Position numbers and translations under genes: made by a program. The notes beneath the pieces were generated by a model. The model did not search any database. It was given only the letters and a program-made list of their open reading frames with translations, and was not told the DNA's origin. Of a stretch of DNA of 64,000 nt, positions 57,577-61,060 are shown piece by piece. Source of the stretch: Thermus brockianus (GTDB lineage: Bacteria; Deinococcota; Deinococci; Deinococcales; Thermaceae); assembly GCF_001880325.1 (NCBI RefSeq), contig NZ_CP016312.1:186001-250000 (forward strand). Direction: 5' to 3'. Within the stretch, counting starts at the first letter, position 1. Each line of letters begins with the position of its first letter.

Positions 57577-58776
57577 CTAGTCCATCCAGTGGCCCAGCTT
57601 CTCCTTCTTGGCCTGGAGGTAGCGCTCGTTGAAGGGGTTGTCCCCAGCCCTCAAGGGGATGCGCTCCACGATCTCAATGCCGAAGCCGGAAAGGGCCTTC
57701 ACCTTGCGGGGGTTGTTGGTCAAAAGGCGCATCTTCCGCACCCCCAGGTCGTAGAGGATCTGCGCCCCCACCCCGTAGTCCCTCAGGTCCGGGGGGAAGC
57801 CCAGGGCCAGGTTGGCCTCCACCGTGTCCAGCCCCTGGTCCTGGAGGTGGTAGGCGCGGATCTTGTTGATGAGGCCAATTCCCCGCCCCTCCTGCCGGAG
57901 GTAGACCAAGACCCCCTTCCCCTCCCGGGCGATGCGCTCCAGGGCCAGGTCCCGCTGGAAGCCGCAGTCGCACCGGAGGGAGTGGAGGGCATCCCCCGTG
58001 AGGCACTCCGAGTGCATGCGCACCAAAATGGGCTCCTCCGGTTCCCAGCTACCCATGACCAAGGCGGCGTGCTCCTCCCCCGTGAGGGTGTCCCGGTACC
58101 CCAGGATGCGGAACTCCCCAAAGCGGGTGGGAAGGGCCGCCTCCGCCTCCCGGCGCACGTAGAGGTCCCCCTTCTCCAGGCGGTAGCGGATGAGGTCGGC
58201 GATGGTTCCCACCTTGAGGCCGTGCTGCCGGGCAAACGCCAAAAGGTCCGGCAAGCGGGCCATGGTGCCGTCCTCCTTGAGGATTTCAATGAGGCTTCCC
58301 ACCGGGGTAAGCCCGGCGAGGCGCAGGAGGTCCACCGTGGCCTCGGTGTGCCCGGCGCGGCGCAACACCCCCCCAGGCCGGGCCACCAGGGGGAAGATGT
58401 GCCCCGGGCGGCGGAAGTCCTGGGCCGTGGCCTCCGGGTCGGCCAAGAGCCGTATGGTGGCCGCCCGCTCGTAGGCGGAAATCCCCGTGGTGGTCCCCCG
58501 GGCGTCCACGCTCACGGTGAAGCGGGTGCCCTGGGGGTCCTGGTTCCGCTCCACCATGAGGGGGAGGTCCAGGGCCTTGGCCCTCTCCTCCGTGAGGGCC
58601 ACGCAGAGGAGGCCCCGGCACTCCCGCAGCATGAAGTTCACCCACTCGGGGGTCACGTGCTCCGCCGCCATGATGAGGTCGCCCTCGTTCTCCCGGTCCT
58701 CGTCGTCCACCAGGATCACCGGGCGGCCCTGGCGGAGTTCCTCCAAAAGCTCCTTGACGCTGGCCAAGCCTTCCAT
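57577..58776 (-). CDS. ribBA: Bifunctional DHBP synthase / GTP cyclohydrolase II
   Basis: Supplies both branches of riboflavin synthesis. The N-terminal half (~1-200) is 3,4-dihydroxy-2-butanone 4-phosphate synthase with [10 protein letters not shown] and [11 protein letters not shown]. The C-terminal half is GTP cyclohydrolase II with the zinc Cys residues in [17 protein letters not shown] and [10 protein letters not shown] chose the ATG at 58776, which overlaps the ribE stop as TGATG; a GTG three bases earlier is in frame. The length of 399 residues is normal. It is the third gene of ribD-ribE-ribBA; ribH is not in the window. Confidence 0.97.
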
Positions 58777-59360
58777 CACTCCCCCCGCATGAGCCTTTCC
58801 ACGTACCGGGCGATGAGGTCCACCTCCAGGTTCACCCCGTCCCCCACCCGGAGGCTTCCTAGGTTGGTGACCTTTAGGGTGTGGGGGATCAAGGTAACCC
58901 AGAAAGCCTCCCCCTCAAGCCCCGCCACCGTGAGGGAAACCCCGTTTAGGGCCACGCTCCCCTTCTCGGCGATGTAGCGGGCAAGGGGCTTGGGGGGCCT
59001 AAAGTAGAAGTCCTTGGCCCCCGGGGCTTCCCGCACCCCTATGAGGGCCGCCACCCCGTCCACGTGCCCGGTGACGAAGTGGCCCCCAAGCCGGTCCCCT
59101 ACCCTAAGGGCCCGTTCCAGGTTGGGCCTGTGCCCCACCCGCCAGGTGGGGGCGGTGCGGCGGAGGGTTTCTTGGGCTAGCTCCACCCAAAACCCCTCCT
59201 CGTCCACCGCCACCGCCGTGAGGCAAACCCCGTCCACCGCCACGGAATCCCCCACCTTCAGGTCGGAAAGCACCTCCTTGGCGGCGATCCGCACCCGCAG
59301 GAAGGGGCCTTCCTCCACCTTAAGGATCTCTCCGGTTTCCTCCACCAGCCCCGTGAACAC
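58776..59360 (-). CDS. ribE: Riboflavin synthase, alpha chain
   Basis: Dismutates two molecules of 6,7-dimethyl-8-ribityllumazine to riboflavin and a pyrimidine. The 194-residue protein shows two lumazine-binding repeats: [12 protein letters not shown] with [13 protein letters not shown] and [12 protein letters not shown], then the second with [17 protein letters not shown]. It begins directly after the ribD stop and ends overlapping ribBA, so the operon is tightly coupled. Symbol usage varies (ribC in Bacillus literature). Confidence 0.97.
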
Positions 59361-60494
59361 CTATACCTCCAGGTACCCTTCTAGCCAAAGGTCTTCCCCA
59401 AGCCACTCCCGCCGCGCGAGGCGAAGCCGGTAGGCCTCCGCCATACGGGAGAGGGCCACGCCCTCCAAAAACCCCTTCCCCTCCCCCACCACCTTGGGGG
59501 CGAGGAAAAGGGCCACCTTGTCCACCAGCCCCCGGGCCCAGAAAGCTCCCGCCACCCTCGGCCCCCCTTCCAACAAGACCCCGTCCACCCCCTCCTCCCA
59601 GAGGAAGGCCAAGGCCACCTCCGGGCTCACCCGCCCCCCCTCCCGGGGGAGCTCCACCACCCGGGCCCCTGCCCGCTCCAAGGCCAAAAGCCGCTCCTTG
59701 GGAGCCCCTCGCCCCACCAGGAGGAGGACCCGGGCGGGCTCGCCTCGAGGCCCCGGGGCAAAGAGCCGGGCGGTGGGGGGGGTGCGGGCCTCCGTGTCCA
59801 GCACCACCTTGAGGGGGTCCCGCAAGGGGGGCGGCTCCAACATGTGGGGAAAGGGGCGGAAGTCGGGATGGCGCACGGTGAGGGCGGGGTCGTCCTGTAG
59901 CACCGTGCCCACCCCCACCACCACCGCCGGGAGCCACTGGCGGTAGGCGTGGGCCACCCGGCGGCTCGCCTCCGAGGACACGTGGCGGGCATCCCCCGAG
60001 GCGGCCGCCACCTTCCCGTCCAGGGTGAGGGCGGCCTTCAGGAGGACGAAGGGCCTCCCCTTCCTTAGGGCAGTGAAGAAGGCCTCGTTCTGGAGCCGCG
60101 CCTCCTCGGCCAAAAGGCCCTCCTCCACCTGGACCCCAGCCCGCCTCAGGCGCTCCAGGCCACCCCGGGCCACTGGGTTCTCGTCCCTGGCCGCCACCAC
60201 CACCCGCGCCACCCCCGCCTCGAGGAGGGCCAAGGAACAAGGGGGCGTGCGGCCGTGGTGGTCGCAGGGCTCCAGGGTCAGGTAAGCCGTGGCCCCCCGG
60301 GCCCTCTCCCCCGCCTCCTTCAGGGCAAAGACCTCGGCGTGGGGCTCCCCCGCCCGGGGGTGGTACCCCTCGCCCACGATGCGCCCTTCCCGCACCAGCA
60401 CCGCCCCCACCAGGGGGTTGGGACTCGTGTGGCCGCGGGCCCTTTCCGCTAGCTGCAGGGCTCTCCTAAGGAAACGCTCGTCCAGTTCGCGCAA
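59361..60494 (-). CDS. ribD: Riboflavin deaminase/reductase RibD
   Basis: Bifunctional enzyme: the N-terminal pyrimidine deaminase (~1-145) has HAEVFAL and the zinc site EPCDHHGRTPPC. The C-terminal reductase (~150-377) has SGDARHVSSEASRRVAHAYRQ and the NADPH region VLLEGGPRVAGAF. The start codon is TTG at 60494, preceded by AAGGAGGGCCGT; that site is built into the closing stem of the FMN riboswitch upstream. First gene of ribD-ribE-ribBA. Confidence 0.96.
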   Translation of the reverse strand: MRELDERFLRRALQLAERARGHTSPNPLVGAVLVREGRIVGEGYHPRAGEPHAEVFALKEAGERARGATAYLTLEPCDHHGRTPPCSLALLEAGVARVVVAARDENPVARGGLERLRRAGVQVEEGLLAEEARLQNEAFFTALRKGRPFVLLKAALTLDGKVAAASGDARHVSSEASRRVAHAYRQWLPAVVVGVGTVLQDDPALTVRHPDFRPFPHMLEPPPLRDPLKVVLDTEARTPPTARLFAPGPRGEPARVLLLVGRGAPKERLLALERAGARVVELPREGGRVSPEVALAFLWEEGVDGVLLEGGPRVAGAFWARGLVDKVALFLAPKVVGEGKGFLEGVALSRMAEAYRLRLARREWLGEDLWLEGYLEV

Positions 60495-60499
60495 ACGGC

Positions 60500-60615
60500 C
60501 CTCCTTCTCCCATCCGGACTTTCACCGTCGGCCCCGGAATTCCACCGGGTCGGGCCCCTAAGGGCTTCGCGGGCTTTCACCGCCGGTGGGGACTTCCACC
60601 CCGCCCCGAAGGAGG
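60500..60615 (-). promoter_or_regulatory. FMN riboswitch (RFN element)
   Basis: The minus strand carries the conserved RFN sequence blocks: GGGGCGGGGTGGAAGTCCCC, ACCGGCGGTGAAAGCCCGCGA, CCGGTGGAATTCCGG, GACGGTGAAAGTCCGGATGG and GAGAAGG. The closing stem P1 pairs CCTCCTTC (60615-60608) with GAAGGAGG (60507-60500), eight perfect base pairs. The 3' arm is the Shine-Dalgarno sequence of ribD, whose TTG start lies 5 bases on. FMN binding, which stabilises P1, should therefore block ribosome entry directly. A hairpin of 7 bp (60613-60629) overlaps the 5' arm of P1 and may be the competing structure. Regulation is inferred from family knowledge plus this arrangement. Confidence 0.95.
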
Positions 60616-60634
60616 TGCCCAAGGCACCTACTCC

Positions 60635-60640
60635 ACTTTA
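60635..60640 (-). promoter_or_regulatory. Candidate -10 box of the rib operon
   Basis: TAAAGT on the minus strand (plus ACTTTA, 60635-60640) lies just before the hairpin and FMN riboswitch, so the start site would fall near 60628. I see no good -35 hexamer at the usual distance. Confidence 0.4.
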
Positions 60641-60686
60641 CCAAGACCGCCTAAGGAGATGTGTCCCTCACTACCCAAAAGGGTTA

Positions 60687-60706
60687 GGGCGCCCCTTGGG
60701 GCGCCC
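60687..60706 (-). terminator. Hairpin after the tmRNA gene
   Basis: A perfect 9-bp stem, GGGCGCCCC against GGGGCGCCC, begins five bases after the CCA end of the tmRNA. On the minus strand it is followed by TAACCCTTTTGG, a weak T tract. It probably ends tmRNA transcription and leaves the mature 3' end for trimming. Confidence 0.7.
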
Positions 60707-60710
60707 CGTT

Positions 60711-61060
60711 TGGTGGAGGTGGGGGGAGTTGAACCCCCGTCCGAAGGTCCCTACGGCGGGCGTCTACGCGCGTAGTCCGCGTTTCGGATGTCCTCCTGGC
60801 TTGGCCCGCGGACGGGCGGCCAGGAGCAAGCCCCGTTAAGCTTCGCCTCGGGCTACGGAGCCTGGCCCTCGGCTAGCCGGGTTTCGTGTCCCCGCGCTGG
60901 CGAGCCCCCGGCGGGGCTTCCAGGCGAGGTCGCGGTCATTAAGCCGCGAGAGCGTAAGCAGGCTTGTTGGCCTTTATTCTTTTGCGGGTTTTTACGAGGC
61001 CACCCGCACCTCGGCGCGCAGCCACGCCCTCGGCGGCCCCCGTCGAGACCGTTCACCCCC
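60711..61060 (-). ncRNA. ssrA: tmRNA (transfer-messenger RNA)
   Basis: Rescues stalled ribosomes and tags incomplete proteins. On the minus strand the 5' end GGGGGTGAACGGTCTCGACGG and 3' end CCCCCCACCTCCACCA form the tRNA-like acceptor, with the T arm GGGGGTTCAACTCCCCC just before it. The tag frame (60971-60939) reads ANKPAYALAA followed by tandem stops TAA TGA, a typical ALAA-ending degradation tag. CCA is encoded. The length of 350 bases matches other Thermus tmRNAs as I remember them. A promoter about 35 bases upstream and a terminator downstream make it an independent transcription unit. Confidence 0.97.

Follow-up and report, generated by a model that had tools for sequence, protein, structure and literature searches.

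A ribD FMN riboswitch of Thermus brockianus with the Shine-Dalgarno sequence in its P1 stem: a probable case of direct translational attenuation

The FMN riboswitch that precedes ribD in the window, a stretch of 64,000 nucleotides of the Thermus brockianus genome (contig NZ_CP016312.1), is very likely an OFF switch that works by direct translational attenuation, its P1 stem hiding the ribD Shine-Dalgarno (SD) sequence with no need of a separate expression platform. The features are collected in Table 1. The aptamer covered all positions (1-138) of the RF00050 covariance model and scored 112.7 bits, compared with a curated cut-off of 66.2 bits. Its P1 consists of 8 bp, all Watson-Crick, formed by 60615-60608 with 60507-60500. 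The 3' arm of this stem, GAAGGAGG, is at the same time the SD of ribD, with a duplex energy of -12.5 kcal/mol against the 16S tail, and the TTG at 60494-60492 opens a frame of 377 amino acids identified as RibD (Pfam PF00383 and PF01872). An earlier note had placed the SD in this arm and the TTG five bases after it, and its coordinates were right to the base. No terminator fits before the ribD start, the gap between P1 and the TTG being five bases, and a separate sequestor hairpin was absent as well. Apart from the P1 arm, the window holds no second SD for ribD. The five-base gap and the lack of a terminator or another SD support the earlier proposal that P1, once stabilised by FMN, would suffice to hide the site. 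This is the simplest design of an FMN switch, fixed in a thermophile genus, and it raises the question of how an aptamer stem closed by its ligand stays accessible to the ribosome near 70°C.

Table 1. Positions of the riboswitch, its parts and the neighbouring genes in the window
Feature	Position	Strand	Remarks
FMN riboswitch aptamer (RF00050)	60498..60617	minus	112.7 bits, full model 1-138
P1 5' arm CCTCCTTC	60608..60615	minus	identical in 27/27 genus genomes
P1 3' arm GAAGGAGG = SD of ribD	60500..60507	minus	identical in 27/27 genus genomes
TTG start codon of ribD	60492..60494	minus	five bases after P1
ribD	59361..60494	minus	Pfam RibD_C and deaminase domains
ribE (lumazine-binding domains)	58776..59360	minus	Pfam PF00677
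ribBA (DHBP synthase and GTP cyclohydrolase II)	57577..58779	minus	Pfam PF00926, PF00925
tmRNA gene (RF00023)	60711-61060	minus	164.4 bits; immediately precedes the riboflavin operon
Terminator-like GC-rich inverted repeat and TTTT, closing the tmRNA gene	60677..60707	minus	read from the sequence
-10-like hexamer TAAAGT	60635..60640	minus	TANNNT in all 26 genus loci scored
5' hairpin, 7 bp and 3-base loop	60613..60629	minus	conserved core 60614-60628; sequence and genus conservation

Behind the aptamer the gene order is ribD-ribE-ribBA, so that the element stands before riboflavin genes, the usual location of an FMN riboswitch. The ribE gene abuts ribD, and ribBA overlaps ribE by four bases, which suggests that the whole operon responds along with ribD. 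Aptamer and gene context agree with the FMN riboswitch or RFN element as described by RF00050; the window differs in having neither a terminator nor a separate sequestor hairpin. Direct translation attenuation is a known class, characterised in the accessible text of Barrick and Breaker (2007, PMC2258182) by a ribosome-binding site buried in the aptamer or P1 and a start codon within 15 nt, and TPP, preQ1 and SAM-I riboswitches are the main users named there. The window element shares with that class the ribosome-binding site in P1, a start well within 15 nt (5 nt in the window, 4 to 6 nt in 27/27 genus genomes) and the lack of any further platform; it differs in its ligand, which would be FMN, and in being invariant throughout a thermophile genus.

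In the proposed mechanism, the aptamer and P1 would open often enough at low FMN for a 30S subunit to pair with GAAGGAGG, and a 30S subunit held there would initiate ribD at the TTG; translation of ribE and ribBA would follow through operon coupling. With FMN bound, the folded aptamer would keep P1 shut and the SD buried. Position and conservation make it most likely that the 5' hairpin starts with the first transcribed base or right beside it, stacks on P1 and closes the 5' end of the mRNA. When the aptamer core was imposed at 70°C, the folding model formed P1 at 0.95 and left the SD open about 1% of the time; in unconstrained folds it was open a few to 25% of the time, values from energies extrapolated to 70°C and, without constraint, unstable between species for these GC-rich RNAs. 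Because of this difference, folding of the aptamer would be enough to change access to the SD.

The arrangement is fixed in the genus and is not due to chance. Each of the 27 genus genomes contained one RF00050 match, both P1 arms were identical to those of the window in every letter (27/27), and a TTG followed P1 after 4 to 6 nt in all of them. With both arms invariant in 27/27 genomes, there was no variation within the genus from which covariation of P1 could be scored. Other in-frame ribD starts, where present, had a much weaker SD; the exception was L002, in which an additional TTG six bases on would share the same SD. The single genome of the sister genus (L049) showed the same arrangement with the TTG after 6 nt. 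The earlier note had named two findings in close relatives that would refute its reading, a terminator-type platform and a P1 lacking the SD, and neither appeared in the 27 genus genomes or the sister-genus genome. For comparison with FMN switches at large, a sample of at least 119 switches was used that matched one DNA pattern in genome contigs; this sample is non-random, and the pattern fixes part of the aptamer. GGAGG or AGGAG occurred in the P1 3' arm of none of the 119 matches listed, and any strong SD was found there in two of them, one from the same phylum (L113) and one from an actinomycete (L171), both with a start 4 to 7 nt further on. To judge from this non-random sample, a P1 that serves as SD helix appears unusual among FMN switches.

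The earlier note had also described a hairpin of 7 bp at 60613-60629 and proposed that it competes for the 5' arm of P1 as the ON state. The hairpin itself is conserved: a fixed rule found it in 26/27 genus loci, with 2.0 expected from dinucleotide shuffles, and in the one exception (L019) the same hairpin is longer and reaches deeper into P1. Within the rest of the family it lay within 2 nt of P1 in 23/30 loci (1.7 expected) and was absent at six ribD-type or unassigned loci (L029, L033, L034, L038, L040 and L042). A looser rule found it in 50 of 57 family loci, its stem pairs varying on both sides; the fourth pair from the loop was T-A in 20 of these 50, G-C in 19, A-T in five, C-G in one and G-T in five. 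Beyond the family, it was present in 12/14 loci of family f4 within 16 nt (2.8 expected), in 21/31 of f5 (9.6 expected), in 2/2 of f2 (0.4 expected) and in 0/3 of f3.

What the earlier note overlooked is the position of this hairpin at the predicted transcription start and the recurrence of the P1 SD across much of the phylum. In each of the 26 scored genus loci a hexamer TANNNT ended 4 to 7 nt ahead of the hairpin's first paired base; two of these loci have a second, more distant hexamer. The hexamer also stood ahead of the hairpin in nearly all family loci, and in the window the hairpin starts about 6 nt after the -10 box. As TANNNT is, in the accessible text of PMC12340547, a tested -10 element of the phylum, the mRNA very probably has the hairpin as its 5' end. 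The best-supported role for it, and on balance a probable one, is that it protects the transcript or stacks on and stabilises P1, with no part in switching. The hexamer spacing in 26/26 scored genus loci and in nearly all family loci and the abutment of hairpin and P1 across the family argue for this role, and TPP leaders of the genus do without the hairpin; against it stand the six family loci without a hairpin, and the 5' end is predicted from the sequence. The same TPP leaders, 24 of the 53 listed matches being inspected by eye, place their -10 element directly before the aptamer, and the hairpin was accordingly rejected as a general 5' feature of leaders in the genus.

It is unlikely that the hairpin is the ON state, capturing part of the P1 5' arm and keeping the SD free as long as FMN is absent, until P1 is locked by FMN and the hairpin gives way. 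This model would agree with the two to four bases common to hairpin and P1 in every genus locus; in the window three bases on the 3' side of the hairpin are also part of that arm. When the window sequence was folded without constraint, the hairpin took the outer P1 pairs and SD opening rose 2.6-fold at 70°C (17% compared with 6.6%), and with the core imposed it was raised about 8-fold at 37°C (median of 28 loci). An overlap of 2 to 4 nt was, however, confined to the genus and the sister genus. A hairpin of the same size, with covarying pairs, overlapped P1 in the other genera of the family by 0 to 1 nt or was separated from it by a gap of 0 to 4 nt, so that the overlap is not kept across the family wherever the hairpin occurs. 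With the core imposed, the hairpin had no effect on SD opening at 60°C and lowered it at 70 to 75°C (28 loci), in a folding model that is ligand-free, gives a crude account of how the hairpin stacks on P1 and relies on energies extrapolated to high temperature. Because the hairpin is present where it hardly overlaps P1, and in view of the folding at 60 to 75°C, it is probably not the main ON-state competitor; it would rather cap the mRNA, stack on P1 or do both. The earlier note was right on the existence of the hairpin, but its role as competitor was not supported at growth temperature: overlap with P1 is slight or lacking elsewhere, and the SD was not consistently opened at 60 to 75°C.

The phylum set comprised 111 genomes, of which 95 had an RF00050 match over the cut-off; all 107 such matches were analysed, two below the Rfam cut-off (G086 and G087) being left out of the counts. 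Start codons of the relatives were chosen by rule and are doubtful for L037, L039, L068, L070 and L094. Fixed rules assigned 31 loci as direct, 37 as split-type, 31 as having an SD of their own and four as 'other'; four were unassigned (L042, L061, L083 and L089). The direct loci were the 27 of the genus, the one of the sister genus and three of family f3. In these three (L090, L103 and L105) the P1 3' arm is GAAGGGGA or GAGGGAAC, with an ATG 3 to 4 nt on, before a RibY-like gene, and in all three f3 has apparently arrived independently at a direct P1-SD design in front of another gene.

In the 37 split-type loci, which precede ribD or ribB, the only strong SD lies in or beside P1, and a spacer of 19 to 41 nt separates it from the start. 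The spacer was predicted to fold below -8 kcal/mol in 34/37 of them (median z of -2.3 against dinucleotide shuffles), and its unpaired remainder was most commonly 9 nt (8/37), with a range of 1 to 16. All 37 show the geometry of a split site, in which a predicted hairpin separates the start from a distant SD and no second SD is available. The P1 3' arm was exactly GAAGGAGG in 29/37; five loci (L085, L087, L088, L091 and L096) have the arm GAAGGAGA with GGAGG just outside P1, and in two f2 loci the last base of the arm is C or T, which makes the group heterogeneous. According to the accessible text of PMC3014915, the T4 genes 25 and 38 have a hairpin that draws a remote SD close to the start codon. 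The relatives share with these the intervening hairpin and the lack of another SD nearby, but in them the SD doubles as an aptamer strand and the spacer hairpin is predicted; the window itself has no split site.

Regulation of transcription by FMN, by way of Rho or of an intrinsic terminator within ribD, the SD overlap being incidental, is improbable. The 3' part of FMN P1 stems is generally purine-rich, and RBS-like 3' ends need not be regulated, as stated in the accessible text of Barrick and Breaker (PMC2258182). Against this, no terminator can fit ahead of the start, and the SD letters are retained in relatives where P1 pairing is lost: in 15 of the 29 split loci with GAAGGAGG, the 5' arm is unpaired at one position or more while the letters of the SD are kept. 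It is highly improbable that ribD is expressed by read-through from the tmRNA gene, found 94 bases ahead of the aptamer in the same orientation, and that the hairpin is not a 5' end. The tmRNA gene ends in a GC-rich inverted repeat with TTTT behind it, and TANNNT at fixed spacing before the hairpin is present in the genus even at loci whose inspected upstream sequence has no tmRNA tail. A tmRNA-like tail upstream of ribD was present in some other genomes of the genus and absent in others.

The 31 loci with an SD of their own were 19 RibY-like and 12 ribD loci. At the RibY-like loci (genera g2-g4) the P1 3' arm never ends in GG, and the transporter gene has its own SD; the contrast with the split loci, where the SD letters persist, favours the reading of the P1 arm as an SD. 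The gene at L032 encodes an NMT1/THI5-type substrate-binding protein (Pfam, L032 only); with the name RibXY taken from the accessible text of PMC3766115, we infer the label RibY-like for these transporter loci. All 19 have a frame of five or six codons behind P1 and a hairpin, and this frame ends in [N/D][T/S][S/T]-stop. This mini-ORF lies 32 to 35 nt after P1 (L032, L041, L044-L046, L050, L052, L057, L058, L060, L062, L065-L067, L072, L074-L076 and L081). The second base of its last three sense codons is invariant, and most changes fall on third positions. The end of the mini-ORF and its downstream flank were predicted to pair with the SD of their own transporter gene at a mean of -12.8 kcal/mol, compared with -11.4 kcal/mol for permuted partners; 31 of 5000 permutations were as good, by a statistic that ignores relatedness. 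An FMN relay at the transporter gene is therefore possible, in which FMN would hide the SD of the mini-ORF, whose translation would otherwise keep its end and flank off the transporter SD.

One observation stands against the proposed role of P1: in 11/12 ribD loci with their own SD, the P1 3' arm still ends in GG. uORFs, with moderate statistical support, may explain this. The uORF set comprised 14 ribD loci with their own SD or of the 'other' type, L086 being left out as its start was mis-assigned. A uORF stop lay exactly four bases past the gene start in 9/14 (4.6 expected with shuffled spacers) and within 11 bases of it in 13/14 (6.95 expected). The gene start read NTGA in 11/14 loci of this set, compared with 6/37 in the split group, which is a stronger sign of uORFs than the counts of stop positions. 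At L043, L048, L055, L056, L059, L064, L098, L099 and L107 the uORF begins behind P1, mostly after a hairpin, and its stop codon and the ribD start codon overlap in TTGA or GTGA. For ppe2 of M. tuberculosis, the accessible text of PMC11260477 describes by experiment a B12 riboswitch acting through a uORF with an AUGA overlap. As in ppe2, the riboswitch in the relatives would mask the SD of a short uORF that has to be translated for the gene to be expressed, with overlapping stop and start; the case in the relatives concerns FMN instead of B12 and comes from comparison. Compared with that overlap, the transporter mini-ORF ends about 90 nt or more before its gene. A literature search that covered few subscription papers found no FMN riboswitch with a uORF or leader peptide among the entries listed.

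The use of one P1 strand as SD for different starts across the phylum, as it emerges from sequence comparison, looks new. The chances are about even that the P1 3' strand of the Deinococcota is an ancestral, fixed SD for which the start was swapped in evolution: for the gene's own at short range, as in this genus; for a gene start across a spacer hairpin; for a uORF whose stop overlaps ribD; or for the mini-ORF before the transporter-like gene, of five or six codons ending in [N/D][T/S][S/T]-stop, whose end and flank could pair with the transporter SD in a two-step FMN relay. The relatives would then reuse a single RNA strand as SD with several types of start. If this is true, catalogues of expression platforms that rely on distance or on terminators misread a whole phylum, which would in turn offer a natural series for testing how hairpin spacers and mini-ORFs transmit a ligand signal.

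A further observation concerns a second TPP switch of the genus. Behind its aptamer at L255, L256 and L247, the SD AAGGAGG is directly preceded by CCGGTGAC or by GGTGAC, a recurrent stretch with complementarity to the 5' beginning of the aptamer that may be part of an alternative pairing in that switch.
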